Source: Nitrospira sp. KM1
GTDB lineage: Bacteria; Nitrospirota; Nitrospiria; Nitrospirales; Nitrospiraceae
Length of the DNA stretch: 64,000 nt
NCBI RefSeq assembly: GCF_011405515.1
Contig: NZ_AP022671.1
Coordinates: 2,294,001-2,358,000, forward strand
Reading direction: 5' to 3'
Shown: positions 10,077-28,002 of the stretch, one piece after another
How the letters are laid out: every line of letters begins with the position of its first letter
Position numbering within the stretch: position 1 is the stretch's first letter
Made by a program: the position numbers and the translations under genes
The notes under the pieces: generated by a model
Database searches by the model: none
Seen by the model: only the letters and a program-made list of their open reading frames with translations
What the model was told of the DNA's origin: nothing

Positions 10077-10104
10077 CGGGATTGTCCTCGCAAGAACGGA
10101 TGGA

Positions 10105-11736
10105 TCAGGCTCGACGCTCGGGCCTCATGAACGGCGGATCACCGTGATCCTTCCGGTAGAGATTTATCGGCGCCAGAGCGTCTCCCGCCGCTATGATGTC
10201 CACGCTGCCGCCTTGATTCGCCCGGTACAACTCGAGCGCGTGACCGTAATGATACTCACAGCCGTGCGGAGAAAGAAGATCTTTCAATTTTTCCGGCCGC
10301 TCCCAATTCGCCGTGAGCAGGGCCGTGCGAGCGGGGTTGCGCCGGCTGAACATGAACGAGAGATGGTCCGGATACCACTCGGCTCCGCCGGTCGCATACG
10401 ACACGAACTGTTTCGCCCGTGCGGCCGTACAGAGTTCTGCCAAGTATCCGTTCGTCAAATAACCGTTCTCGCCGACATCCAGCCATTTGCCCGGATGAGA
10501 GAGCGGGGCATGAACCGCATGGCTCCGGATCTCCAGTAACTGTTGCTGCGAAGCAAAGACCAAGGGAATGGGCCCATACCGTTCGACCAGCCGAGTGATG
10601 ACTCCGTCTTTCAACGGGGACCGTCCGTCATTGGTGGGGCCACTGTCTGCATGGACCAAGACGTTATGCCCGCGGTCAGTGATCAGATAACAATTCCTTG
10701 GCATCTCCAAATCGCAGGGATCTTCGCCATAGAACGGAACGGACACGACCGTGCCTCCTTCGAACGGCCAGGTTTCACCGTGGGCCAGTTCGACCACTCG
10801 GCCAAAGCCAAGCTCACGCAACAAGCCATGGTAGTCATAAAACAGCTTCTTCTTGTTGCGGCGGCTCGGGATAACGATCGGAACGTCTTTGGGAATATGA
10901 AGGAGGGTCCGAGGGTCGACATGATCATCGTGGTCATGCGTGAGAAAAATGGCGGCGGGTTTCGGGATTAATGATCCCCATAAGGATGGGACCGACGACT
11001 CGGCAAACCACGGCAGAAACCAAGGATCAAACAAGAGGACGGTATCGCGCTGACGGTAGAGCAACGCGGCGTGACCCAGATGAAGCATGTCCTGATCCTG
11101 CACGACATCAAACCAGGTATCCCGGATGGTCGCGTGCGATGACGCCCGAAGACACTCGTATTGGTGCAGCGATTCCATCAGCCGGCTCAATACCGGCTGG
11201 GCCTCGCGGGGCGACGTGGTCGCGACCGTCCTGATCTCGTCGGTGCGATGCGTTCCGTCCAACATGCCCAATACCCTGCCGATGATCGGACCGACCGGAC
11301 GTTGATCGAACCCGATAGGTACGGCCTGACGCTTAATCGAATGAAAAATGCGAAGGCCGCCGTTGATCACCGCCGATGAACGCTGGGGGTCCGCGCGAAA
11401 CTGCCACCGAAAGCTTCCGTCGGGCTGTCTGCCGCACGTGATGTGCTGGCGCAAATGCGGCCTGGAATTGACCAATTCCGCATAGGCATCCTCGAGGCGC
11501 CTCCCTCGTTCAGAGTCCTCCACCGGCGCCCGCTTGGAAAAGACGTCGCTGATGGCTGTATCGATCGAACTGGCCAGGAGTGCATGAGCTTCATGGAGGC
11601 CGGCGGCGACCTCCGGGGCCACACCGCCGATGAAAGGAAACGGTCCGGGCGATTCGGCGCTTTCAAGCTGGACCCAACACCACGGCGCCAGGCTGAGATA
11701 CTGTTGAGAGGGGAGGCTGTCCCAGATTCGGCTCAT
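10105..11736 (-). CDS. MBL-fold hydrolase with an N-terminal extension
   Basis: A 543-residue protein. The C-terminal part is a metallo-beta-lactamase fold with the metal motif [10 protein letters not shown] near residue 270, a later HADSG and an H near residue 396. The domain resembles UlaG/NAPE-PLD-like proteins. Ahead of it, roughly residues 120-200, lies a winged-helix-like PqqD-type segment ([16 protein letters not shown]). The first 100 residues match nothing I recognise. This composite suggests a peptide- or cofactor-modifying role, but that is inference. The VOC gene upstream ends 17 bp before its start. Confidence 0.72.
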
Positions 11737-11753
11737 GTCAGCTGATTATCCGG

Positions 11754-12176
11754 TCAGGTCAGTTTACTGATGGTGGGCTCGTAGAGGGCTTGAATGACGT
11801 TGCCGTCCGGATCAGCACAATAGAAGGAATAACTTCCGTCGCGATGCGCTTTCGGCGCTTTCACGATGCGCCCACCGAGCGGTTCGATCCTGGCCATCAT
11901 ATCGCTGTAAAGCGCGTCGACCGCTTCGCGGCTTTCCAAGATGACGCCTAGATGATCGAGAAATTGATGCGGCGACGAACGATACGCTGGCACCTGACCC
12001 GCCTCGATTTGGTGGAGAGCTAAATTGTCGGAGCCTGAACTGAAATAGACGTTGTCCTGATCCGGCTCCCAGACCACCTGCATGTCCAGCAGATCGGTGT
12101 AAAAGGCGCGAGAGCGGGATAAATTCGTCACGCGCAACGCCACGTGTCTGATACCGCGATGCCGACCCATGCTCAT
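11754..12176 (-). CDS. VOC-family (glyoxalase/dioxygenase-fold) protein
   Basis: A single-domain vicinal-oxygen-chelate protein of about 140 residues. IRHVALRVTNLSRSRAFY opens the first beta-alpha-beta unit, and DHLGVILES and FYCADPDGNVIQALYEP form the second. Putative metal ligands are His near residue 11, His/Glu in the middle and Glu near the C-terminus. The ATG at 12176 gives a compact domain. A further upstream ATG at 12263 would add a 29-residue polar leader lacking family similarity. The reaction is unknown, as usual for the family. Confidence 0.75.
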   Translation of the reverse strand: MSMGRHRGIRHVALRVTNLSRSRAFYTDLLDMQVVWEPDQDNVYFSSGSDNLALHQIEAGQVPAYRSSPHQFLDHLGVILESREAVDALYSDMMARIEPLGGRIVKAPKAHRDGSYSFYCADPDGNVIQALYEPTISKLT

Positions 12177-12322
12177 ACAATCCTGTGCATCGTATAGTAG
12201 GTGGCCATCCAGAGCGGCGTCAATTCGATTTTCACCATCGATGCTCGGCTGCGAGTTGCGCAACGGTTATGCTACGATGCGTCGAGCGGGACTTATTTTC
12301 TACGTCTTCAAGGAGTGTTCAC

Positions 12323-13141
12323 ATGATCCGGGGATTCTCGTCGTCAGTTGTTGCCGTGCTCGCTGTTGGAATCGTGTCTGTTGCCTTTGCCGACGAACTG
12401 CGGCCAGGCGGACAGGACGATGTGCCAATGGTCGTGATTCCAGCCGGTTCTTTCCCGATGGGCGTGCCGCCGGGTGATCGCGATGGCGGGCGGGACGAAT
12501 ATCCGCGCCACGAAGTGACTCTGGATGCGTATGCCATGGACATCTATGAAGTCACGAACGGCCGATATCTCAAGTTCGTCGAAGCCACCGGGCATCGTAT
12601 CCCTCAGAATCCGACGAATCCGACTCGGAACCTCTGGCAGGGAACGGCCGTTCCGGAATCCTTGACGGACCGCCCGGTGGTCAATGTCGATTGGGCCGAC
12701 GCGGATGCCTATTGCCGCTGGGCCGGCAAGCGGCTCCCAACCGAAGCCGAATGGGAAAAGGCCGCAAAAGGCAATCATGACTGGCGCTTCCCCTGGGGTA
12801 ACGTCGAACCCACCGCCAAGCATCTGAATTACAATCAGCGATGGGTGGGGGAAAAGACCTTGATGCCGGTCGGCAGCTATGAAGCCGGCAAGAGCCCCTA
12901 TGGGCTTTACGATATGGCGGGCAACGTCTGGGAGTGGGTGAACGACTGGTACGACGCAAAATACTATGAGAAAAGCCCAGGCAAGAACCCTCCGGGGCCG
13001 ATTTCCGGAAGCAAGCGCGTGCTTCGCGGCTCCGGCTGGCAGAACGAAACTCCGACGGTCCGCATCTTCACCCGGGTGGACAGCGATCCGCTCATTCGCA
13101 ACGAATCGACCGGCTTTCGCTGCGCCAAATCCGTACGCTAG
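12323..13141 (+). CDS. Exported SUMF1/formylglycine-generating-enzyme-like protein
   Basis: A 272-residue protein with a signal peptide (MIRGFSSSVVAVLAVGIVSV, probably cut after AFA) and AGGAG 7 bp before the chosen ATG. The rest is a SUMF1 domain: VVIPAGSFPMG, EVTNGRYLKF, GKRLPTEAEWEKAA, YDMAGNVWEWVNDWYD and a closing TGFRCAKS. The redox-active cysteine pair of true formylglycine-generating enzymes is absent from the GSGWQNETPTVRIFTR segment, so catalytic sulfatase activation is unlikely. A second SUMF1 protein sits at 30.4-31.3 kb beside the nxr region. NirV proteins near nirK in denitrifiers have this domain too. Confidence 0.85.
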   Translation: MIRGFSSSVVAVLAVGIVSVAFADELRPGGQDDVPMVVIPAGSFPMGVPPGDRDGGRDEYPRHEVTLDAYAMDIYEVTNGRYLKFVEATGHRIPQNPTNPTRNLWQGTAVPESLTDRPVVNVDWADADAYCRWAGKRLPTEAEWEKAAKGNHDWRFPWGNVEPTAKHLNYNQRWVGEKTLMPVGSYEAGKSPYGLYDMAGNVWEWVNDWYDAKYYEKSPGKNPPGPISGSKRVLRGSGWQNETPTVRIFTRVDSDPLIRNESTGFRCAKSVR

Positions 13142-13217
13142 CCGTGTGTTGACAAACTACGTGATGACCTCGGAAATGGAGTCGTGTCTGAGGTCACGGG
13201 CGTCATTAGCATGCCCT

Positions 13218-13344
13218 GCAGGCTGTTCAGAAAGGCCGTCCAGCAAGGCCGCAGCGAGCGAAGAGGTGAATCGTACTCTCTGCCGTACGTTGAGCCTCTG
13301 AGCGATGCGAGAACGCCGCTGGAGGACTTTGTCAACAGCCTGCT
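13218..13344. repeat. ~127-bp imperfect palindromic intergenic element
   Basis: The ends are imperfect inverted repeats: GCAGGCTGTTCAGAAAG at the left pairs with the complement of CTTTGTCAACAGCCTGCT at the right. The interior (for example GTACTCTCTGCCGTAC) is also partly self-complementary. It has no coding potential and sits in the 272-bp gap before hemD. Size and end structure fit a REP/MITE-like element. I recall similar intergenic elements from Nitrospira genomes, but no second copy is visible in this window. Confidence 0.55.
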
Positions 13345-13413
13345 AGCCGTCTTAAGGTCGTTCCCTGGCACCCCGGTGGCAGTTGCATCATCCACCATAG
13401 GTTCGGTTCTCCC

Positions 13414-14298
13414 GTGACCGATTCAAGACCACCGTCGACACAACCTCCCTTGAGCGCCAACGATTTTCACGGCCTGCACATCCTGTCGTTTGAAAGTCGC
13501 ATGGCCTCCGAAATGTCTCGGCTCATTGAACGCCATGGCGGAACCCCCCTCGTGGTGCCGGCCATGCGGGAAATTCCGGTTCCCCTTCGAGACAACGCCA
13601 ATGTATTTCGGCTCGGCGCGAAGCTGATGCTGCAGCAGGTGGACATGCTGATTCTCATGACCGGCGTGGGCGCCAGCGCACTGTTTGAGACATTACAAAA
13701 GCGTCATGCGTTGCCGGATATCATCGCGGCTATGAAACACGTCATCGTGGTGACGCGCGGCCCCAAGCCCCTCGCGGCGCTCAAGACGCTCGGCATGGGA
13801 TCGAACATCACCGTACCGGAACCGAACACCTGGCAGGATGTGATCGCCACCCTCGACTATTACCGCCCGGTCAAGGGGTTGAGAGTGGTCGTTCAGGAAT
13901 ATGGATCATCGAATCCCGAGATGATTCGCGATCTCGTATCGCGGGGAGCCGAGGTATTTCCGGTTACGATGTACCGCTGGGCGCTGCCGGAAGACCTCGG
14001 ATCGCTTGAACGCGCCGTCGCACGTATCCTGGAGGGCACGATTGACGTCTTACTGATCACGAACGCAGCGCAGATCGATCACGTCATGCAGCTGGTTGAA
14101 CGGGATGGACGAACTGCAGCGTTCCTCAATGCATGCAGGAAGCTTGTGATCGCCTCCATCGGTCCGACCGCCAGCGAACGAATCAAGCACTACAATCTGA
14201 CAGTCGACCTTGAACCGTCTCATCCCAAAATGGGAATCCTTGTAAAGGAAACCGCGATGAAGGCGGGAACACTCGTTTCTCGTAAACGCGGCGGCTGA
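13414..14298 (+). CDS. hemD: Uroporphyrinogen-III synthase family protein
   Basis: A 294-residue HemD-fold protein that would cyclise hydroxymethylbilane to uroporphyrinogen III for heme/siroheme synthesis. Two Rossmann-like halves are visible: HILSFESRMASEMSRLIERHGG and LILMTGVGASALFE, then VVTRGPKPLAALK, GLRVVVQEYG, VLLITNAAQIDHV and IASIGPTASERIK. The start is GTG at 13414 with a weak ribosome-binding site. An internal ATG at 13501 would remove the first strand. The gene stands apart from other heme genes. HemD sequences diverge widely, so the name rests on architecture. Confidence 0.82.
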   Translation: MTDSRPPSTQPPLSANDFHGLHILSFESRMASEMSRLIERHGGTPLVVPAMREIPVPLRDNANVFRLGAKLMLQQVDMLILMTGVGASALFETLQKRHALPDIIAAMKHVIVVTRGPKPLAALKTLGMGSNITVPEPNTWQDVIATLDYYRPVKGLRVVVQEYGSSNPEMIRDLVSRGAEVFPVTMYRWALPEDLGSLERAVARILEGTIDVLLITNAAQIDHVMQLVERDGRTAAFLNACRKLVIASIGPTASERIKHYNLTVDLEPSHPKMGILVKETAMKAGTLVSRKRGG

Positions 14299-14300
14299 GT

Positions 14301-14326
14301 GGGTTTTGCGGGGAAAACCCGTTTTG
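14301..14326 (+). terminator. Terminator between hemD and the convergent multicopper oxidase gene
   Basis: The stem GGGTTTT/AAAACCC with a six-base GC-rich loop is followed by GTTTTG on the plus strand. It begins 3 bp after the hemD stop and lies before the end of the convergent gene, so it may serve both directions. Confidence 0.6.
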
Positions 14327-14367
14327 ACGAGTTCTCCCCGCTCATCACCTCCGGGCGGACAGGAGCG

Positions 14368-17300
14368 TTATTGTCTGGTCGAAGACACCGGTCCGATCCG
14401 GGCCGGAAGCTCTGCGTCGGCCTGTTTCACACCAGGTCTGACGCCGGTCAGCGGCTTGATGCGCTGATCGCCGGATGGCAGCACCCGCAGATATCCCCAC
14501 TGTCCTGATTGCGAATAGGGCAACCGCTGGTTGCTCCACACATAGTCGCCTGTCAGCCGGAACGGGCCGCCTGCGCTAGGAATGAAGGCATCCAGAGTTT
14601 CCGATCCCGAGAACTCCACCACGCTGATCATGTCGGCCCCGCGCATGAACGGCTCGATCGGCCATTCATGGCGTTCGACCGCGAACATGCCGTTCTGCTC
14701 ATTGCTCGCCCCGAACACATGGATGCGCACGGGATCTCCGGCGTGCGCTTCGATGATCGGGGTGGCAGGGTCCTCGGGCTTGTCCACCACGCATGGTTGG
14801 AAGACTTTGCCGAGACTACATCCGGTATCCTGCCGGAACTTATAGGGCTCCGCACGATAGTTGACGGAGATCAAACCTGCCGTGTTCTGCACATACGGCA
14901 TGAAGCTCGTCCCGATGATGTTGTCCTCGTCCTGGAAAAACAGGGCCACATCGCGGTAGTTGACGCGATGTTCATAGCCCTGAATCGTCCGGTCGACGAT
15001 GACATCGGCCACCCAGCTGTTCTTCGTCGAAATGTCCGCCCCGGTCTTGGGATCGCGGTACTGGGCGCCTCTTGGCCCAATCACCAGCGCACCATAGAGC
15101 CCGTTCCGTGGATGGGTCATTACGTTGCCCCAATCCCACACCAACGAGGCGGTCTCTCCCAGGAACGGATCGGCGTAATACGTGTATGTGCGGTTCTCCC
15201 CCGGTGCGACCGTCTGATCGCCTGGATTGTTCCCGACGTTCGCGCCGAGCGAATCCTTGGGGTCGAACGCCAACCCGATGGCGGAGAACGAGGCTCGTCC
15301 CTCTTTCATCCGGTTGGTCAACTTGACTTTGAGGCAGTCACCGACATTGCCGCGCAACGTCAGGGGCATCGGCTGCAGCCCGCTGCCCACTTTGGCGACT
15401 TCCTCCTCCAACGCGTAGATCTTCGCGTCAGGGTTCACCATTTGGATCGTCCGCTCGAAGTCCACCTCGATCACATCGGGAGCTTTCGGATTCAGCTTCA
15501 TCGCGGGATAATCCATCGCCACCACGTTGAAGTGTTTCACCGGAGCGTCCGCCGGACAGATCGGCAGCGGCTGCGGAATGTTGTTTCTGCGGCTGTACCC
15601 GGCCGGCAGTTTCTGAAGATCCGGGACTTCTTTGTCCAGAACCCGCATCACGCCCCACGCACCCTCCGAGAATTTGGAGGTACGTCCGTTGAAGTGGATG
15701 TAGTCCCCCGGTTGGAGCCGCGGTCCGCCGGCTTGCGGCACCACGAGATCATAGCGCTCAGCAATGCCGATATGGATCGAGTTCTTCCGGTTGGCATCAC
15801 CCGCATAGCGCTCGGTCAGATAGGTGTGACCGGAGAGCGTCCACACCATCGTTTCGTTCGCCATGGTCTGAAGCAGACGGAACACCACCGTGTCACCGAG
15901 ATACGCTCGCACCATCGGTGTATAGGGATCGCCGTGGGCGGCACTGCTGAACAGCTTGGAGGCATCGGGATTCGAGGCCAATCGGCTGGAGACCGGCTCG
16001 GCTTTGAAATTCAATCCACCGCCGGTCGTATGTGTTCCGCCGTTGAGAAAGGGCATCGGCGTCATCGGAATGTGCTCCGGCATCGGGAACGACACGGTTT
16101 TGCCGGCTTCGAGGGCCACCTCGATCGGCTGACCCGGAGGATTCCCGGCTGTCACGATGTTCACCGTGTGAGGCACGGTGTCGTTGAGTTGCACGAGCAA
16201 CTCGCGGAAGCTGCCATTGACTCCGTAGCCGACGGGTTCAGCAGTCCGAATATCGGCCAACGGACCGCTCCTGATTTGCTTGCCGGTCTTCGGGTCATGA
16301 TACGTCGAACCAACCGGCTCGATGACGATCGTCCCGAATCCTCCATGCGGCCACGTCACCCGACCGAGCGCATGGTCGTGCCAGAAAACCGTGCCCACAT
16401 CGGAGTCCACCCAGAACCGCTGACGGACGAATTCGACCGTGACGATGTCCTTCGCCGGATGATCGTGCTTCAACGGGCGATACAGCGTGATCTGGTTGCC
16501 CTTGATGGATTTGACCCGCCCGATCTCGTTACCTCCGACGTTGTCCGCGCCGATCAAGATCTCCACGTTCGGATGGTACTGCGCGGCGTTCTTGACCGTG
16601 ATGACTCGCTCGCCCTTCTTGGCCGGCTTCGTGAACGTCGTGTTCATCGGCACCGGAAGACCCTTGTTGACCTTTTTCTCGAGCATGGTGAAGGGCCGCA
16701 CCGACTGCTCATACGAGAATCCGGTGATGACCCCATCCGACGATTGGTTATCGAACTGCAGGAAATGCCAGTGGGTGTTGATCTTCGAGGAATGGAAGTT
16801 GATGTGCTCGTCATCTTCCCATTCGCTGGTCAGCATCCAGTCGATGCAATCGTAAATATTTGCCCGCACGACGAGCGGATACTTGATGTCGCTCTTGCGG
16901 ACCTGAGCTTCTTCTTCGTGCAGCACGTAAATCAAGCCGTCTTTATCCACGATCGCAGGGGTATCGCCCTGCTTATCCGCCAACGTCATCGGCGTCTGGA
17001 TGAAGTGCACGTTGTAGACCTTGGAGCCGGCTTGTTCCGGACAGAGGCTCCAGCGGCCATTCTCACCAGGCTTGGCCGGATAGGAACTCGGCGCTCCGTC
17101 TTCGTCCAGATGGATCATTTCCAACCAGGGAGACGGATTGTGATTCTGCGAGAACGGCACGCGCCGGCCGAAATGCGGCTTCAAATGGGGCCAGGCCACC
17201 TTCCCCGTGGCCGATTCGAACAGGATCGGCACCCGCTTGCCGGGAGTCAATGAGACGTATCGCGGATTCGCCACGCTATTTTCGCGTTCGGTCATCGCAC

Positions 17301-19200
17301 GGTCGGCCTGCCACGCCCAGTCCAAGACACTGGCATCATAGGACCGTGTCTGGGCCATTTCGTCATCCTTGTGGCCCGGCTGCCCCTGCGGGGGCAACTG
17401 CATCGTCACCCAATCCTTTACATTGACGACGGCAGGCGAAGCCTTCCAATCCGTCTTGCTATCCTTGACGATGTTGAACGTCTTCCCGAACCAGTCCAGT
17501 GTGCGACCGACGAGCTGATCCGAGGTAATACCGGCTTGAATACGGCCCGCTCGGTCAGGGAGTTCACGAAGGGACGGCATCGTGTCATTGTGGACCTCCC
17601 CCTGCTGTAAGGTGTTGTACACGCGCCAGTAGCCCCACATCCCCGCGATGTAATGGTGCGCGACGTGACAATGGAACAGGAAATCTCCGGCCAACTGCTG
17701 ACACAGGCCTGATCCGCATTCCGTCTCCAGATCCATCGTCTCCGAGGGTCCGATGACTTCCACGTCGACGCGATCGGACTTGGTCCGAATCACGGGATAT
17801 TTGACCGGACCGTTTTTGGCCGTATGCCACAAGGGCATCTCGTCGATTGCACGGGGACTGCGCGGCCAGCGAATCGATCCGCCATGCGGATGGTGGGAGT
17901 GGAAGACCTCCGACCCACCATGGACAAGCCGAAACTTGGCCGGATCACCCAGGTAGCTGCGCGGCACGGTCGTCGCCGGATCACCGAATGTATAGGCGCT
18001 GTACGCCATGGATTCGTCTTCGAAGCCGAAGTACTCGTGCTGCGTCTGCATGTTGTCGACGCCGAACGGCTCGCTGCGATAATTCAGGGCACGGGCGACC
18101 GGACGGTAGACGTCGGTCAGAGGATCGCGCTGCGGGAGGAAATCGCCCTTTTTGTTCAGTGGTCTGAAGGCCTCATCGCCGACTTCGTGGTACATCAGCA
18201 CAAATTCACGAAAATCCGGACCGTTCCCATTCTTGATGATCGCCTGCCACCCGCTCGTCATCGGCGTGGGCTCGCCGCTGCCGATCGGATCCAGGTATTC
18301 CGACCCTTTGGGTTCGATGACGAAGGTCCCGAACAACCCCATGACCGTCAACTCGCGGTCGTTACTGTACGAGTGGAACTGACGCCCGCCTTCCTGCTGC
18401 GTCGGCGGAATATACCACTCGAGTTCCACGGTTTTGCCCTGTGGTGCGATGCTATCGGGGTTCGTCGTGGTCGCCGGCTGTCCCGTCGAGGCGATCACCA
18501 TGCTGGATCCATGGATGTTGAGGCTGACCTCTTCGCCGCCCTCGAGTTGATTACGGAGCGTCATCTTGACGCAGTCGCCCTGATTGCCCCTGATCACCAG
18601 AGGTTGGATCCACTGACTCTGCAAGCCGTTCTTGACGGCACCGGGATCATAGCCCTCTTTGTCGCGGGCTTCGCGATTGACGGTTTCCTCCGCCCGCACT
18701 TTCTCGACGTTCTCGGTCAGCGCGTACATGTAGCCGGGATAGTAGTCGAGCCACATATTGAGGGATATCTCAACGTTGATCGCCGAGATATCGTACTTCC
18801 GCACCGGTGCCGACGCCGGGCAGCGTCCACCTCCCATGGATACCGGCTCCGCACCGGAATCGGACATGAGCAGCACATCCTGGTTGCCCGCGCCGTACTG
18901 GTGCATCATGTTGACGTTGTTGAAGTACCCGTCGCCATGCTGTTCGGCGGCGTCATGCTCCATCTGTTGCATGATCCGTTGATGCTGGCGCTCCATCATG
19001 GCGGTGCGTTCCGGACGGCCTTCCATCACGTCCTCGACGATTGTCTGCCCTTTCAGCTGCTGAGCCCATGCCGTGGTCGCCTGCGGGTTTCCCGCGTCAT
19101 GATTCGCGTGTTGCGCCGCCGCCTCGGTCCCGACGAACGCCAGGCCCAAGGCGCACAGAATTTTTGCCAGTGACCGAGAATGTTCGAAACGCCTCCGCAT
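14368..19200 (-). CDS. Giant exported multicopper oxidase (MnxG-like, permuted copper motifs)
   Basis: About 1,610 residues with a signal peptide (MRRRFEHSRSLAKILCALGL, then EAAAQ) and AGAGGA before the ATG. An alternative ATG lies at 19218. Residues ~25-105 are Met/His-rich. Several cupredoxin domains follow. Copper motifs in order are HGSS (~232), FHSHHPHGG (~437), FHCHVAHHYIAGM (~510, type 1/type 3 signature), THWHFLQFD (~805) and FWHDHALG (~940). Thus the motifs normally third and fourth in laccases come first, and the first and second follow. I recall this order, and the QFDxQxSDG...YEQSVRP stretch, from MnxG-type manganese oxidases. It lies 55 bp downstream of nirK, so it is probably in the same operon. 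The substrate is unknown; a metal or nitrogen oxide are both possible. Confidence 0.85.
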   Translation of the reverse strand: MRRRFEHSRSLAKILCALGLAFVGTEAAAQHANHDAGNPQATTAWAQQLKGQTIVEDVMEGRPERTAMMERQHQRIMQQMEHDAAEQHGDGYFNNVNMMHQYGAGNQDVLLMSDSGAEPVSMGGGRCPASAPVRKYDISAINVEISLNMWLDYYPGYMYALTENVEKVRAEETVNREARDKEGYDPGAVKNGLQSQWIQPLVIRGNQGDCVKMTLRNQLEGGEEVSLNIHGSSMVIASTGQPATTTNPDSIAPQGKTVELEWYIPPTQQEGGRQFHSYSNDRELTVMGLFGTFVIEPKGSEYLDPIGSGEPTPMTSGWQAIIKNGNGPDFREFVLMYHEVGDEAFRPLNKKGDFLPQRDPLTDVYRPVARALNYRSEPFGVDNMQTQHEYFGFEDESMAYSAYTFGDPATTVPRSYLGDPAKFRLVHGGSEVFHSHHPHGGSIRWPRSPRAIDEMPLWHTAKNGPVKYPVIRTKSDRVDVEVIGPSETMDLETECGSGLCQQLAGDFLFHCHVAHHYIAGMWGYWRVYNTLQQGEVHNDTMPSLRELPDRAGRIQAGITSDQLVGRTLDWFGKTFNIVKDSKTDWKASPAVVNVKDWVTMQLPPQGQPGHKDDEMAQTRSYDASVLDWAWQADRAMTERENSVANPRYVSLTPGKRVPILFESATGKVAWPHLKPHFGRRVPFSQNHNPSPWLEMIHLDEDGAPSSYPAKPGENGRWSLCPEQAGSKVYNVHFIQTPMTLADKQGDTPAIVDKDGLIYVLHEEEAQVRKSDIKYPLVVRANIYDCIDWMLTSEWEDDEHINFHSSKINTHWHFLQFDNQSSDGVITGFSYEQSVRPFTMLEKKVNKGLPVPMNTTFTKPAKKGERVITVKNAAQYHPNVEILIGADNVGGNEIGRVKSIKGNQITLYRPLKHDHPAKDIVTVEFVRQRFWVDSDVGTVFWHDHALGRVTWPHGGFGTIVIEPVGSTYHDPKTGKQIRSGPLADIRTAEPVGYGVNGSFRELLVQLNDTVPHTVNIVTAGNPPGQPIEVALEAGKTVSFPMPEHIPMTPMPFLNGGTHTTGGGLNFKAEPVSSRLASNPDASKLFSSAAHGDPYTPMVRAYLGDTVVFRLLQTMANETMVWTLSGHTYLTERYAGDANRKNSIHIGIAERYDLVVPQAGGPRLQPGDYIHFNGRTSKFSEGAWGVMRVLDKEVPDLQKLPAGYSRRNNIPQPLPICPADAPVKHFNVVAMDYPAMKLNPKAPDVIEVDFERTIQMVNPDAKIYALEEEVAKVGSGLQPMPLTLRGNVGDCLKVKLTNRMKEGRASFSAIGLAFDPKDSLGANVGNNPGDQTVAPGENRTYTYYADPFLGETASLVWDWGNVMTHPRNGLYGALVIGPRGAQYRDPKTGADISTKNSWVADVIVDRTIQGYEHRVNYRDVALFFQDEDNIIGTSFMPYVQNTAGLISVNYRAEPYKFRQDTGCSLGKVFQPCVVDKPEDPATPIIEAHAGDPVRIHVFGASNEQNGMFAVERHEWPIEPFMRGADMISVVEFSGSETLDAFIPSAGGPFRLTGDYVWSNQRLPYSQSGQWGYLRVLPSGDQRIKPLTGVRPGVKQADAELPARIGPVSSTRQ

Positions 19201-19255
19201 CGTAATGTCCTCTCTCATGGTAAAGGTTCCTGGATATCCGGCTCTACGCGGCTGT

Positions 19256-20260
19256 CTACGGATTGGAATCGGCTGCGCGAGCCACAGCGTCTTCGTTTGC
19301 ATGACCGGACGGTTCGAAACCGACCTTGGGAGAATCTTCTTTGGCGACATGAATCACGCCAAGCGCCCCGGTCAGTGCATCCTGCAGGGAGTGGGTCACC
19401 ATGGGATACATGCCCTCCTCCGGAATGATGAGATCAAATGTGGCACCTCCGCCCGGAGGCAACGTATACGTTTGGACTCCGTATTCGACGTTCTTGGGAT
19501 TGCCGCTGGCATACACCCGGTCAAAAATGGCGCCGATGACGTGAAACGCGGAGAAGTGATTCGGCCCTGCATTGACCACATGCAGCCGGATGAGTTCCCC
19601 CGGCTTGGCCCGCAACGGCTCATCGAGGTACTTGTTCGCCTTACCGTTGAACACCACCAGCTTGGGTTTACCCGCCATCATCGCGGCCACATCGAATGGC
19701 GTCGGATAGACCTCGCTTTGCACGATGACGTACTCTCGATCGGGCTTCGTCACGGGATGGCGCGGTTCGACCACGACGGCGCCAAACATCCCGTTCGCAA
19801 TGTGCTGGATCATCGGGTCGGTTCCGCAATGGTAGTAAAAGACGCCTGGATAATCGGCCTTCCATCGGAAGGTCGATTGTGAGCCCGTTGGAACTCCCTG
19901 AAAATGGAGGTTCCATGGAGTCTTCGCCGCATGAAAATCGATCGAGTGCACCCGGTCGGCCTCGTTTTTCAACGTGAAATCGACGATGTCTCCTTCCTTC
20001 ACGCGGATGACCGGGCCTGGAAACGACTCGTTGAACGTCCACGCCTCGCGTTGATCATCCTTGGCAACCTCGACCTTGGTAACCGTTGCCCGCAGTTGAA
20101 CGGTGACGACCTCGGCCCGACCGACGTCGGCCACGAACAAGCCGGCGGCCGCCGCCAGCAGGAGCGCCCATCCGAGTCGTTGAGCGCGCGCTTCTTCCTC
20201 CACGACGGAGGCATTCTGATCCGACATTTTCACCCCTGTGTCCGGTCCGATCCGTTCCAT
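19256..20260 (-). CDS. nirK: Copper-containing nitrite reductase (NirK type)
   Basis: A two-domain cupredoxin nitrite reductase of 334 residues with an N-terminal hydrophobic export segment (LGWALLLAAAAGLFVADVG). All expected ligands are visible. HSIDFH gives type 1 His, catalytic Asp and type 2 His. YYHCGTDPMIQHIANGM gives type 2 His, type 1 Cys, His and Met. FSAFHV gives the catalytic His and THSLQD the type 2 His from the second domain. It reduces nitrite to NO in the periplasm. Two starts are possible: 20260 (GGAG at good spacing) and 20227 (AGGGGT). A near-consensus sigma-54 element and a dyad lie upstream. Confidence 0.93.
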   Translation of the reverse strand: MERIGPDTGVKMSDQNASVVEEEARAQRLGWALLLAAAAGLFVADVGRAEVVTVQLRATVTKVEVAKDDQREAWTFNESFPGPVIRVKEGDIVDFTLKNEADRVHSIDFHAAKTPWNLHFQGVPTGSQSTFRWKADYPGVFYYHCGTDPMIQHIANGMFGAVVVEPRHPVTKPDREYVIVQSEVYPTPFDVAAMMAGKPKLVVFNGKANKYLDEPLRAKPGELIRLHVVNAGPNHFSAFHVIGAIFDRVYASGNPKNVEYGVQTYTLPPGGGATFDLIIPEEGMYPMVTHSLQDALTGALGVIHVAKEDSPKVGFEPSGHANEDAVARAADSNP

Positions 20261-20318: not shown

Positions 20319-20334
20319 AGCAACTGTCGTGCCG
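20319..20334 (-). promoter_or_regulatory. Sigma-54 promoter of the nirK-multicopper oxidase unit
   Basis: On the minus strand the sequence is CGGCACGACAGTTGCT. It matches the -24/-12 consensus TGGCACG-N4-TTGCW at every key position except the first base, with the GG and GC doublets at the required spacing. Transcription should begin about 12 bp downstream, leaving a leader of roughly 45-50 nt before the nirK ATG at 20260. Confidence 0.8.
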
Positions 20335-20454: not shown

Positions 20455-20478
20455 ATGTCGCGGATGACGTCGCGATTT
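20455..20478. promoter_or_regulatory. 24-bp dyad, putative activator site for nirK
   Basis: Half-sites ATGTCGCGGA and GTCGCGATTT are separated by four bases. The same 10-4-10 geometry appears upstream of nxrA with a perfect dyad. It lies 121 bp upstream of the sigma-54 element, a normal distance for an enhancer-type site, and overlaps the last two bases of the activator gene's stop codon. An extra TCGCGA stands just outside it (20448-20453). Confidence 0.65.
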
Positions 20479-22114
20479 AGGAGAGGGGAAGATTCAACGG
20501 ACGGCTCAGACCGAGCTTCTTCATGCGGCTTCGAAGCGTGCTGGGATTCATACCGAGCTGCGCCGCAGCGCCATATGTCCCATAGATCCGCCAATGAACG
20601 GATTCCAAGACACGCAGGATATGCCTGCGCTCGACGTCGATGAGATTGGACGTGGATTCCGACACACCGTTCACGGTTGCCAGCGGTTCGACGGTGACAA
20701 CCGGTGAGCGCGCCAGAATCACCGCCCGTTCGATCACGTTCTGTAGTTCACGGACATTGCCGGGCCAGGAATAATTCGTCAGTCGCGTCAACGACTCCGG
20801 ATTGAGCTCCAGCACGGCACGCTTTAACTTCGACCGGTACGCTTCCAAAAAATGGCGGGCGAGCAGCGGGATATCCTCCCGGCGATCACGCAAGGGAGGC
20901 AACAGAATCGGAAATACGTGCAGCCGATAGTACAGATCCTGCCTGAACCGGCCTTCGTTGACGGCGTTCACCAGGTCGGAGTTGGTCGCCGCAACGATGC
21001 GAACATCGACCGGAACAGGACGGGTTCCTCCCACACGATCCACCAGACCGTCCTCGAGCACGCGGAGCAGCTTGGCCTGAGCTTCCAGCGGCATCTCGCC
21101 GATCTCATCGAGAAAGAGTGTTCCGCCGTTGGCCAGCTCGAACCGCCCGGGACGCCGTTGGTCCGCGCCCGTGAACGCTCCGCGCTCATGGCCGAACAAC
21201 TCGCTTTCGACGAGCCCCATCGGGAGCGCCGCACAGTTCACGCGGACGAATGGCTTATCACGGCGAGTGCTCAGCTCATGAATGGCCCGTGCCATGAGTT
21301 CCTTGCCAGTCCCGGTCTCGCCGGTGACGAGCACGGTGGTCGACGTCGGGCCCACCGCTTCCGCCTGTCCCAACGCGGTGCGAAACGCGGCGCTGAGACC
21401 CACCATCGCTCCGAAGTTATGCGTCAGCTTGAGCTCTTCGACCAGATATTCGTTTTCGTGCTCCAACTGATGGCGGAGACGATCGATCTGCTCGTACGCC
21501 CGCACGTGGTCGATGGCATAGGCAATCTGCGTCGCCACCAACTGGAGAAATTCCAGATCGGATGGATCCGGCTCCCCGCACTCGACGCTGCCGATGTTCA
21601 GCGTGCCGATGCAGGTGTTACCGATCATCAGTGGAGAGTTGATCATCCGTCCCAGTCCTTCACGGACATAGTAATCGTCCTCCAGAAACAACCGCTGGCG
21701 TTGCAGGTTCGGTCGCACGTGGATAGTCCGATTTTCATACACCCATCCGACGGCGCTGCCAGCTTTGGGAATCACGGCATCGCGCTGAAGTTCTCGCTGC
21801 GGCATCGTGGTTTCGACAGCGTAGAAGCGGAACGAGTTGGTGTCCGGATTGTACAGAGTGACGCCAGCGCGCTCCCAGGGCAGCACTTTCCGTATCTGCT
21901 CGGTGATGGCGCGCCAGAGACTGTCGGTGTCGCGTTGAGAGTTCAGGACGTTGGTGACGGCCAGCAGCGCCCGATAACTTTCATCGGTATCCCGCATCTG
22001 CAATCCTCCGGACAAGAAATCGCCGGTCGATTCGACAGGTTCCTGCTCTCCCGGCGAATGATCGCGACGGTCAGCAATCCGCGGCTGGTGAGGGGTAAGA
22101 TCTCCATTCAGCAT
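20477..22114 (-). CDS. Sigma-54-dependent activator with GAF domain (FhlA/NorR type)
   Basis: The regulator has three parts: an N-terminal GAF domain (about residues 40-200), a central AAA+ domain with GETGTGKE (Walker A), the sigma-54-contact GAFTGA loop and [10 protein letters not shown] (Walker B), and a C-terminal Fis-type helix-turn-helix ([20 protein letters not shown]). GAF-containing activators of this kind sense small ligands such as NO or formate. The ATG at 22114 has AAGGG upstream. An alternative ATG at 22153 overlaps the previous gene's stop as TAATG, which would couple translation. It lies between nxrAB and nirK, and I infer that it binds the dyads upstream of both. Confidence 0.9.
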
Positions 22115-22152
22115 ACGTGAACCCTTCTCTCCATCGCAAGGTAACTGGGTCA

Positions 22153-22851
22153 TTATACAAAATCCCGTTGCCGGTCCGATTGATTGTGGTTGTGCTCGTG
22201 GACCAAGAAGGCCGGCGCCGGCGGCTCCGCACCCTGATCTACCGACCGACCCATCGCACGACCGATCGCGATCCCAAACGCAAAGCCTCCCGTCGCCGTG
22301 GCGGCCAGCCCCCATCGCACCCACTCGATTCCGCTGGCAATCTGCTGATCGTGATCAGCCTGATACTCGGTAAGCTTTCCGTCCAGATCGCGGAATGCCA
22401 TCGCCACGGCGGTCGCCTGCGCAAGACCTTTTCCCCCGCGAATATATGACAGGACATCTTCCTCTCCACCCCGCTCGAGAGCCAGTGTCAACCGTCGTTT
22501 GGCATCGAGCAGCTCCGTCACCCGCTCATTCACGGTTCTCACTCTGAATTGCAGATCCGGCCACGGCGATGTGAGACGCAGTAGTCCGTCCACGATACCT
22601 GGAATACTTCCCTCGGCCGCGACCATGGGGATCAGAAACGAGGACTGCTGCATCAGCACGTATCCTCTGAACCCATTGTCGACATCGGCCACCATTCGCT
22701 CCAGCCTCAGCACCTCCTGCCGGATATGAGACTGTCGGACCTGCGCTTCATGGATCGCCCACCATTGCTCGATCAGAACGGTCTGAACACCCAGCATGCA
22801 GAGAAAGCACGTCCCTGCCGCCAACACTCCGAATACAGTCCGTGTTCGCAT
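22153..22851 (-). CDS. CHASE3-like membrane sensor protein without output domain
   Basis: A 232-residue protein with one transmembrane helix at 7-29 and a second at about 178-203 ([20 protein letters not shown]). The helical periplasmic loop between them contains [14 protein letters not shown], the hallmark of CHASE3 domains. After the second helix only a short His-rich tail (HEHNHNQSD) follows. There is no kinase, HAMP or cyclase domain. Its stop overlaps a possible start of the sigma-54 activator by one base, so the two are probably translated together and may form a membrane sensor-regulator pair. That partnership is inference. Confidence 0.75.
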
Positions 22852-23028: not shown

Positions 23029-24318
23029 CTAGAGCCAGTTCACCCGTTCGGCGGGGCGAATGTAGATGGGCTCTTCGACCTGGATGCGGGCCACTTCCTT
23101 GCCCGACTTGTTGAAGCCCAGCACGGTATCGTTGTACATCTCAAAGCGCTTCCCGTGGATCTGGGTTTCAAACACCTTCGGGCCCGGAATGACGTCGTAG
23201 CGGAAGATGATCTGCTGGCTGGCCCGCCAGAGTTGGAGGACGGCCAACAGCTCCCGGCTCGGCACCAGGTACTTCTCAATGGCATTGTCGACGCCCGGGC
23301 CGAACATCTGCCGCGCATAGCCCCGGGGGGAATGCCGCGGCGGAATGTAGAAGCCGTTGGGCTCGGTGCCCCACTGCGGATACAAGGGCAGCGCCACCTG
23401 CTCCACCCGAATGGTGTAGTACAGGGGATGCCACCGGTCCTCCGCCCACAGGCCGTCTTCGCCGATGCGCACCAGGCTCTGCATGCGGATCTTGCCCACG
23501 CACGCCGCCATACAGCGCGTCTCCATCGGCTCCCCGCCCGTCAGCGGATCCTTGCCCTCGATCCGCGGATAGCACGCAATGCACTTCTCCGACACCCGGG
23601 TCGTCCCCCGGTACATCGGCTTCTTAAACGGACACTGCTCCACGCACTTCTTGTACCCCCGGCAGCGGTTCTGGTCGATCAACACAATGCCGTCTTCCGG
23701 CCGCTTGTAGATCGCCTTGCGCGGACAGGCCGCCAGACACCCCGGGTATGTGCAGTGGTTGCAGATCCGCTGCAGGTAGAAGAAGAACGTCTCATGCTCC
23801 GGCAGGCTGCTGCCCGTGAGCCGCCACGGTTCATCGCGCGAGAACCCCGACTTATCGATGCCTTCCACCAAGGAGCGCATCGAGGTGGCGGTGTCCTCGT
23901 AGATGTTCACGAAGCGCCATTCCTGGTCCGTCGGGATGTAGCCGATCGCCGCCTGGCCCACCTTGGCCCCCGCGTCGAAGATCGTCATCCCTTCGAACAC
24001 CCCATAGGGCGCATGGTGCTTGCGGCCCACCCGCACGTTCCACACCTGCCCCCCCGGGTTCACCTGCTCGATCAACTGCGTGATCTTCACGTCGTAGAAC
24101 TGCGGATACCCCCCGTAGGGCTTCGTCTCCACGTTGTTCCACCACATGTACTCCTGCCCCTTCGAAAACAGCCACGTCGACTTGTCCGCCATCGAACAGG
24201 TCTGACAGGCCAAACACCGATTGATGTTGAACACAAAGGCAAACTGCCACTTCGGATGCCGCTCCTCGTACGGGTACAGCATCTTCCGTCCCAGTTGCCA
24301 GTTATAGACTTCAGGCAT
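23029..24318 (-). CDS. nxrB: Nitrite oxidoreductase beta subunit
   Basis: The 429-residue electron-transfer subunit of NXR carries electrons from the molybdenum subunit through Fe-S clusters. Cysteine sets are visible at NRCLACQTCSM (~35), RICNHCTYPGCLAACPRKA (~190), NRCRGYKKCVEQCPFKK (~215) and EKCIACYP plus TRCMAACVGK (~245-270). This is the four-cluster pattern of the DMSO reductase family beta subunits (NarH/SerB-like). The length and start MPEVYNWQLGRKMLYPYEERHPKW fit Nitrospira NxrB as I know it. AAGGAGGA precedes the ATG. It has no signal peptide of its own, so it should be co-exported with NxrA by the Tat pathway. It follows nxrA by 101 bp. Confidence 0.97.
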   Translation of the reverse strand: MPEVYNWQLGRKMLYPYEERHPKWQFAFVFNINRCLACQTCSMADKSTWLFSKGQEYMWWNNVETKPYGGYPQFYDVKITQLIEQVNPGGQVWNVRVGRKHHAPYGVFEGMTIFDAGAKVGQAAIGYIPTDQEWRFVNIYEDTATSMRSLVEGIDKSGFSRDEPWRLTGSSLPEHETFFFYLQRICNHCTYPGCLAACPRKAIYKRPEDGIVLIDQNRCRGYKKCVEQCPFKKPMYRGTTRVSEKCIACYPRIEGKDPLTGGEPMETRCMAACVGKIRMQSLVRIGEDGLWAEDRWHPLYYTIRVEQVALPLYPQWGTEPNGFYIPPRHSPRGYARQMFGPGVDNAIEKYLVPSRELLAVLQLWRASQQIIFRYDVIPGPKVFETQIHGKRFEMYNDTVLGFNKSGKEVARIQVEEPIYIRPAERVNWL

Positions 24319-24419: not shown

Positions 24420-27400
24420 CTACACCTTGATCTTGATGTGCTCCCCTTTGAGCCACTTGATCATGAATTCGTTCTCCTGACCCGGCGTAAACCCGGTCCG
24501 GACTGGTTCCCACGGCCCGCGGGCCCCGATGCCGCCGTCTTCCGCCTTCGTGATGCGGATCAAGCATTCCTTCGGGGTCGTGTTGATCGCATGGTGGTCA
24601 ATCGCATAGCCCCACTTGAACTTCCAGGCAATCGCGTGCTTGCCCGGGAGTGAGTCGGTCTGGTGCATCGGCATCAGCCACGACCGGGTAAAGGACTGTT
24701 GGGCCCCATACCGGAAGTTGGATTGATAGCCGGTGTCCACCGCGATCGCCCGGCCGTCCGGCCGCGTCTCGTGGCCCTTCACCGACTTCGCCGTCGACAC
24801 GTACGGAGCGTGTTTCGCCATCGTCACGTGATACGGATAGGCCGGGTTGTACTTCGCGCGAATCATCAAGCGCGCGACCTTGTAGAACGGATCCGAGGGC
24901 TTCCAGCCCCGATAGGGCCGGTCCACCGGGTTGCCGTCCACATAGACATAGTCGCCGTCGTTGATGCCGCGGTCTTTCGCCGCCTGCGGGTTGATGTGGA
25001 TCTGGTGCTCGCCGACGCCCGGCGTCCGTTTGTCCATGCGGTACGGATCGCCGAAGTTCGACTCGTAAATCTGCACCCAATCGTTCACCGACCACTGGCT
25101 GTGCACCCGGTGCCGGGTCTTGGGCGTCACGCAGTAGAACTGGTACCCCTTCTCCCACAACGGATTCGAATGTTGCTTGACGTCCTGCCACGGCAGCTTG
25201 ATGTTGCGCACCGTCTTATCGTCGTGGTGCTGCGCCGTGATCGGAATCCCGTAGTCGTCCGGCCGGACGTACGGGTTGCTCGTCATGATCGCGTTCGGCA
25301 GATACGGCGTCGCCTCCGGGCCTTCCCGGTGCACGATGAAGTTCTCGCCGTACTCGATCGCCTCCGGTTCCACCCGGTAGGTCTCCAACCGGCCCGAGCG
25401 CGTCCACTGCGGCTTGCTCTCGTTGACTTCTTCCCAGAGCGGATGGCGCGGATAGGTCCGAACCATAACCATCCAGCCCTTCTCCGACTTCAGCATCACG
25501 TCCGCGCTGTAGCCGTACAGGGTGCTGGAGGCATCCAGCACACGCTGCGCGTACACATCGACGCGGTTTTGATAGACAAAGTGGAAGACCTCTCTCATGC
25601 GATTGTCGCCGGTGATATCCCCCAATCTGGCCGCAACGCCGGCGAACGTATCGAGGTCGTTGCGCGTGTCGTACAACGGCCGGATGCCGCCCTTCCACAA
25701 CTGGATCCAGGGATTGGATACCGTGGCGGTCATTTCCGGGTAGGTGAACTCCATCCAGGAGTTACACGCAAAGGCGATGTCGGCGTGGTTCACGTCCGAG
25801 GTCATCTCGATATCCTGCGTGATCAACATTTCGATGTTCGGATCCACGTTGCGCACCATGTCGTAATGGTGCTTGGAATTATTCAGGATGTTCACATTGA
25901 CCACCCACCGCACTTTGCTGGGGCTCGGCATGTGCGTCTTGCCCGTGAACACCTTCCGTCCGTACTTCGGGGTGTTCACGATCAGTGCGGTGTCGCCATG
26001 ATTCCAGTAGCCCGGCTCTTCACCGTAATAATAGGTCTTGTACTTGATTTCCTTACCGTGTGCGTTCGGATCCAGATTGGAATGCCACGGATCTTCCGCG
26101 AGATGCACTCCCGCGCCGGCGCCTGACCAGGGAGCCGCGTTCCAGATGCCGACCTTGTAGTTGCCCGACCAGGTATGGCAGCCGGTCCCGAACTTTCCGA
26201 TATTGCCGGTCAAGATCAACACCAGCGCCGCCGCCCGTCCCATGGACGTCATGTGGAAATAGTGGCAGACGCCTTCGCCGTTGTGGATGGCGGCCGGCTT
26301 GATCGTGCCCGAATCCCTCGCCCAGCGGACAATGAGGTCCTTGGGGGCGCGATTGATTTGATGCACGGTATCCAGATCGTAATCCTGGAAATGGACCATG
26401 TAGAGCTGATAAATCGGGGCGACATCCACCTCGCGCCCGTTGAGCAACTTGACCCGGTAGGTGCCCGTCAAGGCGGCATCGATCCCCGCGTCGAGGTAAT
26501 GCCAGCCCACTTGTTCACGATGCAGCGGCACCGCCTGCTGCTTTTTCAGATCCCACACCATCATGCCGCCAAGCCGCTGAATGTACTCGGGCTTCAGGCC
26601 TTGAATGCGCCCCGAATAGGCATGCGAGAAATCCGGCAATGCATATTCCTTGATCACGTCGCGCGGATCCAAGTATTGCAGCGTGTCGGTACGGACCAAC
26701 AAGGGCATGTCCGTATACTGCTTTAAGAAGTCGATATCCTGCAGGTTTTCATCGACGATGATCCGGCTGGCGCCGAGAAAGAGCGCGCCGTCGGTTTCCG
26801 GGCGCACCGGAATCCAATAGTCCGCGCGCGAGGCGGTGGGGTTGTATTCCGGCGTGATCACGACCAACCGGGCGCCCCGCTCGATCGACTCGAGCTTCCA
26901 GTGCGCTTCCGGCATCTTGTTCTCGACGAAATTCTTCCCCCAGCTGGTGTTCAGCTTGGAGAAGCGCATGTCCGAAAGGTCGGTATCGCAGTTTTGCGTG
27001 CCGTTCCACCAAGGCTGAGAGGGATCCTGGTCCCCGTGCCACGTGTAGTTGTTCCAATAACGGCCGCCCTGCGCGTGCTCCGGGCTCACCTTCCTGATCC
27101 AGGAGTCCAGGAGGGCCAGGATGCTGTTGTTGAAACGAGTGTTCCCATGCTTGCCGAGCAGCCCGAGGATCGGCATGCCGGCGCGGTGCTTGAAGCAGCG
27201 GGTGCCGGCGCCCTTCATCATCTCGATCATTTCCGGCGCATAACCCTGTTCGCGCAACCGCCGCGCACCGGCTTCGCCACTGTAGCGCGTCCCGATCGTG
27301 ACCAGCGCCTTCGCCGCATATGTAAAGGCCGTGTCCCAGGACACACGAATCATGTCGTCCAGGAATCGGCTGTTGAACTTATATTTCCGCTTTGTTTCCG

Positions 27401-27857
27401 GCGTGAGTTCCGGCGAGCCGGCATCCATCCATTCCTTCCACCCTTTCCGCATCAATGGCCCCTTCAAGCGATACGGGCCGTAGACGCGGCGATGGAAGGT
27501 GAAGCCCTTCAAACACATCCGCGGGTTATGGGCGAACGTCCCGCGGTTGCCATAGAGATCTTCGTAGGTTTGATGATCGTAGTTCTGCTCCACGCGCATG
27601 ACGACGCCGTTGCGGACGAAGGCGCGGATGCGGCAGGCGTGGGTGTCGTTCGGAGAGCAAACCCAAGTAAAAGAAGAATCATAGCGATATTGGTCGTGAT
27701 AGACCCGCTCCCACGAGCGGTCCGGATAATCACCGAGCGGATTGCCCACCTCGATGACCGGCTGCAGCGCCGTCAGCGCCAGAACCTTGTCCGCCACCGC
27801 CGCCACGGCAACGGTACCCGCGGACACTTTTAAGAATTGTCGACGTGATAAAACCAT
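24420..27857 (-). CDS. nxrA: Nitrite oxidoreductase alpha subunit (molybdopterin)
   Basis: The 1,145-residue catalytic subunit oxidises nitrite to nitrate with a Mo-bis-MGD centre and one Fe-S cluster. The N-terminus has a Tat motif, LSRRQFLKVSAG, and a hydrophobic stretch, which fits the periplasmic NXR of Nitrospira. The Fe-S region reads WVCSPNDTHACRIRAF and later PRMCLKGF. The segment YTWHGDQDPSQPWW probably holds the Asp ligand to Mo (tentative). The ATG at 27857 has AGGAGGA upstream and matches the family length; an upstream ATG at 27974 adds 39 residues that no Tat substrate needs. Promoter and dyad elements lie upstream. No NxrC-like membrane/heme subunit gene is in the window. Confidence 0.97.
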   Translation of the reverse strand: MVLSRRQFLKVSAGTVAVAAVADKVLALTALQPVIEVGNPLGDYPDRSWERVYHDQYRYDSSFTWVCSPNDTHACRIRAFVRNGVVMRVEQNYDHQTYEDLYGNRGTFAHNPRMCLKGFTFHRRVYGPYRLKGPLMRKGWKEWMDAGSPELTPETKRKYKFNSRFLDDMIRVSWDTAFTYAAKALVTIGTRYSGEAGARRLREQGYAPEMIEMMKGAGTRCFKHRAGMPILGLLGKHGNTRFNNSILALLDSWIRKVSPEHAQGGRYWNNYTWHGDQDPSQPWWNGTQNCDTDLSDMRFSKLNTSWGKNFVENKMPEAHWKLESIERGARLVVITPEYNPTASRADYWIPVRPETDGALFLGASRIIVDENLQDIDFLKQYTDMPLLVRTDTLQYLDPRDVIKEYALPDFSHAYSGRIQGLKPEYIQRLGGMMVWDLKKQQAVPLHREQVGWHYLDAGIDAALTGTYRVKLLNGREVDVAPIYQLYMVHFQDYDLDTVHQINRAPKDLIVRWARDSGTIKPAAIHNGEGVCHYFHMTSMGRAAALVLILTGNIGKFGTGCHTWSGNYKVGIWNAAPWSGAGAGVHLAEDPWHSNLDPNAHGKEIKYKTYYYGEEPGYWNHGDTALIVNTPKYGRKVFTGKTHMPSPSKVRWVVNVNILNNSKHHYDMVRNVDPNIEMLITQDIEMTSDVNHADIAFACNSWMEFTYPEMTATVSNPWIQLWKGGIRPLYDTRNDLDTFAGVAARLGDITGDNRMREVFHFVYQNRVDVYAQRVLDASSTLYGYSADVMLKSEKGWMVMVRTYPRHPLWEEVNESKPQWTRSGRLETYRVEPEAIEYGENFIVHREGPEATPYLPNAIMTSNPYVRPDDYGIPITAQHHDDKTVRNIKLPWQDVKQHSNPLWEKGYQFYCVTPKTRHRVHSQWSVNDWVQIYESNFGDPYRMDKRTPGVGEHQIHINPQAAKDRGINDGDYVYVDGNPVDRPYRGWKPSDPFYKVARLMIRAKYNPAYPYHVTMAKHAPYVSTAKSVKGHETRPDGRAIAVDTGYQSNFRYGAQQSFTRSWLMPMHQTDSLPGKHAIAWKFKWGYAIDHHAINTTPKECLIRITKAEDGGIGARGPWEPVRTGFTPGQENEFMIKWLKGEHIKIKV

Positions 27858-28002
27858 GAGGGTATTCCTCCTTGCTAAAAAAATATGAGAACGAAGATCT
27901 GCGGTCTCGTCCAAACCCGTATCGACTCTCCCACCTCCTTTCTTTGCTTCATATTTGCCTGAATGTGACGGCAATCAGGACGGACCCCACGATCAGGTGC
28001 AG

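Follow-up and report, generated by a model that had tools for sequence, protein, structure and literature searches.

A giant MnxG-like six-domain multicopper oxidase encoded next to nirK in Nitrospira sp. KM1: family placement, neighbourhood and possible function

Giant multicopper oxidases and the placement of the Nitrospira protein

Nitrospira are the commonest nitrite oxidisers. Multicopper oxidases (MCOs) carry out one-electron oxidations at a T1 copper and reduce O2 to water at a trinuclear cluster; in the three-domain laccase/CueO type, of about 500 aa, the A/B copper motifs come first and the C/D motifs last. According to an analysis of 2013, the trinuclear site of every bacterial six-domain MCO sits between domains 2 and 3, with a mononuclear site in domain 2 (PMC3600357). 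In Pseudomonas putida, the promoters of the giant MCO genes mnxG and mcoA contain predicted sigma-54 sites, and the Pseudomonas regulator MnxR is sigma-54-dependent, with an rpoN mutant of a related strain devoid of Mn oxidation (PMC11930936, PMC11409713). In water filters, Nitrospira itself is suspected to remove manganese (PMC12070406). In the parts of one account covered here, an MnxG-like MCO is reported from the nitrite oxidoreductase (NXR) gene cluster of Nitrospina gracilis and as highly conserved in Nitrospira defluvii; a role for Mn(III) in protection from reactive oxygen is proposed there (Luecker et al. 2013, PMC3578206).

The gene analysed here lies in a stretch of 64,000 nt, referred to as the window, of the Nitrospira sp. 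KM1 genome, which is a single contig of 4.51 Mb; the features are collected in Table 1. The oxidase ORF extends over 14368–19350 on the minus strand in the ORF list and offers two candidate starts, ATG 19200 (1610 aa) and ATG 19218, each preceded by a purine-rich stretch at suitable spacing; ATG 19218 is as plausible as ATG 19200. Residues 1–30 resemble a Sec signal peptide by inspection, from which export is predicted. A protein of ~1,610 residues with a secretion signal is also what the first-pass annotation described. The Met/His-rich N-terminus given there is apparent for methionine in residues 31–125 (9 of 95, P = 8e-4), but histidine is hardly enriched (6 of 95, P = 0.08). Segments 125–545, 716–1205 and 1206–1575 can be aligned with one another as internal repeats (E down to 9e-19), and since each corresponds in length to roughly two cupredoxin domains, the oxidase is regarded as a six-domain protein. 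Pfam Cu-oxidase_3 matches it at 52 bits against a cut-off of 21. Between the HWH and HDH motifs, residues 855–925 (window ~16426–16638) form an insertion that is missing in Bacillus-type MnxG.

Table 1. Features of the oxidase locus, in window coordinates
Feature	Coordinates	Strand	Basis
HemD-like uroporphyrinogen synthase, next gene past the oxidase, convergent	13414-14298	+	
Giant six-cupredoxin-domain MnxG-like MCO, 1610 aa	14368..19200	-	ORF, motifs, family and structure matches
Putative domain 3 trinuclear ligand codons H810, H812, H941, H943	16372..16773	-	Motif positions and conservation
Putative domain 2 T1/trinuclear ligand codons H434, H437, H439, H510, C511, H512, H516, M521	17638..17901	-	Motif positions and conservation
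nirK, Cu-containing nitrite reductase, first gene of presumed nirK-MCO operon	19256..20260	-	TIGR02376, PDB 4kns, ligand motifs
Sigma-54-type promoter site CGGCACGACAGTTGCT, 59 nt before the nirK ATG	20319..20334	-	Pattern match and conservation
GAF-AAA+-Fis sigma-54 activator (NifA/NorR/FhlA-like), presumed nirK-MCO regulator	20477..22324	-	Domain and family matches
CHASE3-domain protein	22153..22851	-	Domain match
nxrB, nitrite oxidoreductase beta subunit	23029..24318	-	Likeness to Nitrospira NxrB and adjacent nxrA
nxrA, nitrite oxidoreductase alpha subunit (TAT signal, molybdopterin domain)	24420..27974	-	Domain and family matches

Of the solved structures, Bacillus MnxG 9bxa came closest by sequence search (E 7e-87). 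It is the H340A mutant of MnxG from Bacillus sp. PL-12, whose H340 is equivalent to H516 here, both located at C+5. AlphaFold was run on residues 115–1240 and 328–972 with 40–46 Nitrospira relatives, a shallow alignment with which both models were poor, at a pLDDT of 53, and domain 2 remained mostly below 50. With the first model, which at this pLDDT is weak as an independent test, Foldseek ranked 9bxa first (E 5e-30) and also retrieved ceruloplasmin. The closest relatives are from N. moscoviensis and other Nitrospira, and the host genome encodes four copies, at 100, 73, 66 and 53 % identity. In a maximum-likelihood tree (quick search, with long branches in distant rows) all Nitrospiria oxidases form a single, fully supported clade. 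It adjoins the Streptomyces protein L123 and is separate from both Priestia MnxG and the MnxG-like proteins that other Nitrospirota encode. Priestia MnxG, of the Bacillus type, served as the MnxG representative in this tree.

Against the NCBI MnxG equivalog NF041487 the oxidase scores 131 bits, with a cut-off of 3100. Bacillus-type MnxG also reaches just 353 bits, so this cut-off fits Pseudomonas-type MnxG only. Given this score and the position outside MnxG-type sequences in the tree, assignment to MnxG proper was rejected; by sequence comparison the oxidase belongs to the MnxG-like six-domain family, yet outside MnxG proper. The kinship with MnxG for which a phylogeny had been proposed is therefore borne out by the 9bxa match, but not as membership of the MnxG-type sequences. 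The oxidase is real, complete and conserved, yet ordinary for a known family already noticed in Nitrospira.

Copper ligands and motif order

All four MCO motifs that supply T1 and trinuclear ligands are present, in the order H434-S-H-H437-P-H439, H510-C511-H512-x3-H516-x4-M521, H810-W-H812 and H941-D-H943, i.e. with the C/D motifs ahead of A/B. The block order reversed with respect to laccases and the HCHxxxH at ~510 had been recognized correctly in the first-pass annotation. The HPH at ~437 is present as part of an HxxHxH site at 434–439, and the HWH and HDH motifs placed at ~805 and ~940 are found at 810 and 941. By likeness to laccases and MnxG, H434, C511, H516 and M521 would be the T1 ligands, and H437, H439, H510, H512, H810, H812, H941 and H943 those of the trinuclear cluster. 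A second complete T1 site was not found in the oxidase, the single T1 motif being in domain 2, and an extra HDH at residue 912 is poorly kept (H in 30/83 rows).

Six HxH motifs occur where 1.7 are expected from shuffled sequence, and HCHx3Hx4M arose in 0 of 2000 shuffles. The full set of twelve ligands is found in 132 of 134 aligned Nitrospiria rows; one exception has a single substitution, and the other, without nearly all ligands, is probably an antisense frame. Ten of 11 real distant rows also have all twelve, the eleventh having Phe at the axial position.

The motif order had been described as a circular permutation, and a similar order had been noted for MnxG-type oxidases. This is correct, and the order is general rather than peculiar to this protein: the same order occurs in 7/7 plasmid-borne homologues (Streptomyces, Priestia with its Bacillus-type MnxG, Rubrobacter, Haladaptatus, Nonomuraea, Indioceanicola and Hymenobacter), and is thus common to Priestia MnxG and homologues of Actinomycetota, Bacteroidota, Pseudomonadota and haloarchaea. 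Novelty of the permutation was rejected, since bacterial six-domain MCOs are laid out in this way as a family (PMC3600357). Two other assignments were also discarded, that of a three-domain laccase/CueO-type MCO on motif order and the length of 1610 aa, and that of a ceruloplasmin-type MCO on the sole T1 motif in domain 2. Deep class members (L135–L141) have an HxxHxH-like stretch in domain 1, e.g. GAHTFHSHVGRE, some 150 residues N-terminal to the functional site; at that place the window oxidase retains only H276. This stretch of the deep members is possibly a vestigial copper site.

The nirK neighbourhood and the sigma-54-type site

As first annotated, the oxidase gene lies downstream of nirK, at 37–55 bp and on the same strand, and every gene from nxrA through the oxidase is on the minus strand. 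The nirK product scores 182 bits against TIGR02376, under the cut-off of 296, and matches PDB 4kns with E 1.2e-73; T1 and T2 ligand motifs are recognizable by inspection. No AmoA family match was obtained in the host genome by profile search, although no control genome gave a match either, and the host is probably not a comammox strain. Sufficient upstream sequence is available for 83 oxidase copies, and nirK is upstream in four of these: the window, N. moscoviensis (L007), L026 and L146. The nirK-MCO pair as a general unit was rejected on this count. The window, L007 and L026 copies form a supported subclade. Of the 31 copies for which long flanks are available to the left and right, the window copy and L007 have NXR no more than 10 kb away; further cases were seen in L013, L020 and L142–L147, the last six having been chosen for close coordinates and so constituting no frequency sample.

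The site upstream of nirK has one mismatch to TGGCACRNNNNTTGCW. At up to two mismatches this pattern gives 14 matches in the window, no more than chance; the site is credible because it is kept in four genomes, with counterparts CGGCACGCCGGTTGCT in N. moscoviensis (L007), CGGCACGTCTGTTGCT in L026 and CGGCACATCTGTTGCT in L146. At L147 (genome G155), positions 7860–8200, nirK has decayed to a 15-residue remnant, NPKNLEYGIHLYALP (67 %, E 0.003; reversed-sequence control E 2.4 or worse), and CGGCATGCCTGTTGCT is located directly upstream of an intact oxidase with the remnant between them. G155 carries another nirK elsewhere. With nirK decayed but site and oxidase retained, this locus is a natural experiment on the gene served by the promoter. 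That the site is kept ahead of nirK in four genomes and ahead of the MCO in L147 supports the earlier suggestion of a sigma-54 promoter common to both genes.

Copies of the N. defluvii type, without nirK, have TGGAACGRGAGTTGCT 205–244 nt upstream of the oxidase, and a sensor kinase gene and a sigma-54 response regulator gene precede the oxidase (L086:5551-8999, with dCache; L093:13598-17040). Homologues of this kinase and response regulator are also located upstream of the host's own 53 % paralogue. From gene order, the activator in the window is probably the counterpart of NITMOv2_4531, a NifA-like gene beside the strongest nxrAB copy of N. moscoviensis that ranks 14 in the transcriptome (PMC6606698). 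Sigma-54 activators are common beside nxr genes in Nitrospira, and this regulation is therefore not specific to metal oxidases.

Distribution, possible functions and known systems

Across the class, 244 of 247 genomes encode the oxidase (176/177 of good ones), including 33 of the 34 that lie outside the order of the window. In none of those 33 was NxrB matched strongly (best E between 1e-6 and 1e-10, or no match at all), and NirK matches were obtained in 11. A function bound to nitrite oxidation is thus unsupported: being near-universal in the class, with or without NXR, the oxidase has a role not tied to nitrite oxidation, and its class-wide presence without NXR argues for a general one. Three giant MCO copies per genome, two of them adjacent, occur in G215 and G218 (f8/g21), of a class genus without NXR. 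In Nitrospira sp. UW-LDO-01 (L012:9740-14710) the MCO frame is broken by one in-frame stop (9740-11032, 11036-14710).

The reading preferred here, at a probability of about 0.55, is that of an exported MnxG-like six-domain MCO with periplasmic or surface Mn(II), Fe(II) or Cu(I) as likeliest substrate, encoded in a nirK-MCO operon under sigma-54. Three tandem cupredoxin pairs would carry one T1 copper in domain 2 and a trinuclear cluster at the domain 2/3 interface; the T1 copper would take electrons singly and pass them to the trinuclear cluster, where O2 would be reduced to water. The gene would be second in an operon beside nxrAB whose sigma-54 promoter is driven by the adjacent GAF-AAA+ activator, and it may serve for metal or redox defence, not for gaining energy. 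A metal ion is favoured as substrate since the characterized giant relatives named here oxidise Mn or Fe. Against a metal substrate, the neighbouring nirK and nxrAB point to nitrogen more than to metals, no metal-transporter-like gene is present in the nirK-MCO operon, and the Nitrospiria clade stands apart from MnxG-type sequences, with the MnxG cut-off missed by far.

Genes for two paralogous, exported-looking proteins with a CarboxypepD_reg domain, here CupA and CupB (e.g. L053:14842-16853, L008:12406-14378, L091:5948-8248), raise the possibility of a different role. One or two such genes are located within 1.5 kb downstream in 83 of 118 oxidase copies for which at least 1.2 kb of downstream sequence is available, genomes without NXR included, and the arrangement looks ancestral since it is found in deep class members. 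No NCBIfam family matches these proteins, but the segment MQCGFHAYMESW, with its C-x2-H-x2-M stretch (CGFHAYM), suggests a T1-type copper site, and they are probable candidate cupredoxins. The oxidase could then act as an O2-reducing sink, with CupA/CupB as periplasmic electron donors to its T1 site. Genes for a cytochrome bd-like oxidase, which recur directly or a few genes after the MCO at many loci (L053:23595-24830, L012:14932-16950), many of them in clade B, would also accord with such a sink. However, within the close group of the window copy (at least 80 % identity) CupA/CupB are kept in 10 of 37 members, the window copy and 26 others being without them; copper binding by the Cup proteins is read from a motif, and energy conservation is not expected. 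For the window oxidase this role is unlikely.

Cu(I) oxidation in the periplasm for copper tolerance, as by CueO, would suit the Met-enriched N-terminus, and plasmid-borne distant relatives adjoin copC, copCD, a heavy-metal ATPase and a metal-sensing repressor. The window copy, however, has no copper-resistance gene nearby and the regulators are sigma-54 activators, not CueR/CusR types, which makes this role rather doubtful.

The presumed operon with nirK also permits a nitrogen substrate: NirK would reduce nitrite to NO and the MCO would return NO, or handle another N-oxide, as nitrite, shielding NXR and the respiratory chain. We know of no agreed enzyme for the NO-to-nitrite step in Nitrospira, and the best family matches of the activator include NorR. 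In Nitrosomonas europaea, ncgA encodes a small multicopper oxidase. The nirK of that organism is clustered with ncgABC, which putatively scavenge NirK-made NO (PMC10781756), and a reference quoted in PMC7589051 credits ceruloplasmin, a relative with six domains, with NO oxidase and nitrite synthase activity. Yet the pairing with nirK is confined to four of 83 copies, the G155 locus has kept promoter-like site and MCO while its nirK decayed (though another nirK is present there), and a NirK match occurs in only a third (11/33) of MCO-bearing genomes outside the order; pairing with NirK is accordingly quite improbable. That the oxidase beside nirK oxidises NirK-made NO or N-oxide in an O2-driven recycling to nitrite under sigma-54 control is more doubtful still, on the same observations.

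Returning to the metal-oxidase reading, nearly every class member has at least one complete giant copper oxidase, and its substrate would tell whether nitrite oxidisers oxidise Mn or recycle NO. The conserved sigma-54-type site and the cupredoxin partners are concrete handles on this function. Four details are new, namely the nirK operon and the conserved site belonging to it, nirK loss with the oxidase kept, the cupredoxin partners, and near-universality irrespective of NXR; no earlier report of them was found in the part of the literature covered.

Among known systems, the MnxG-like MCO of N. defluvii and Nitrospina gracilis is most likely of the same family, the N. defluvii copies L053 and L086 having 74 and 82 % identity to the window oxidase; the covered parts of that account (PMC3578206) mention neither the nirK operon and its sigma-54 site nor the cupredoxin partners or the spread through the class. 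Bacillus MnxG (9bxa) and Priestia MnxG (L124) share copper-motif order, ligand set and six-domain build, but are ~1220 aa against 1610, have below 30 % identity, and are of the HCHLYPHF type around T1 where the window oxidase has HCHVAHHY. A Bacillus MnxEFG-type complex was rejected: small mnxE/mnxF-like genes are absent beside the window oxidase, and where Priestia has two small genes directly upstream of MnxG, nirK is located here. P. putida MnxG and McoA, also giant MCOs, resemble it in their sigma-54-type promoters and sigma-54-dependent regulator (PMC11409713, PMC11930936), although it falls far under the NCBI MnxG equivalog cut-off. Ceruloplasmin, hephaestin and Fox1 likewise have six cupredoxin domains. 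The trinuclear site of Fox1 is between domains 2 and 3 (PMC3600357), as predicted here, whereas that of ceruloplasmin is between domains 1 and 6 with further T1 sites, against one T1 site in the window oxidase. The sister of the Nitrospiria clade, the plasmid-encoded WP_266914373.1 of Streptomyces sp. NBC_00335 (L123), has 31 % identity over 91 % and shares the HxHHxHGG and HCH-x3-HYxAGMWG style with Nitrospiria oxidases, but its gene differs from the window locus in being followed by copC.
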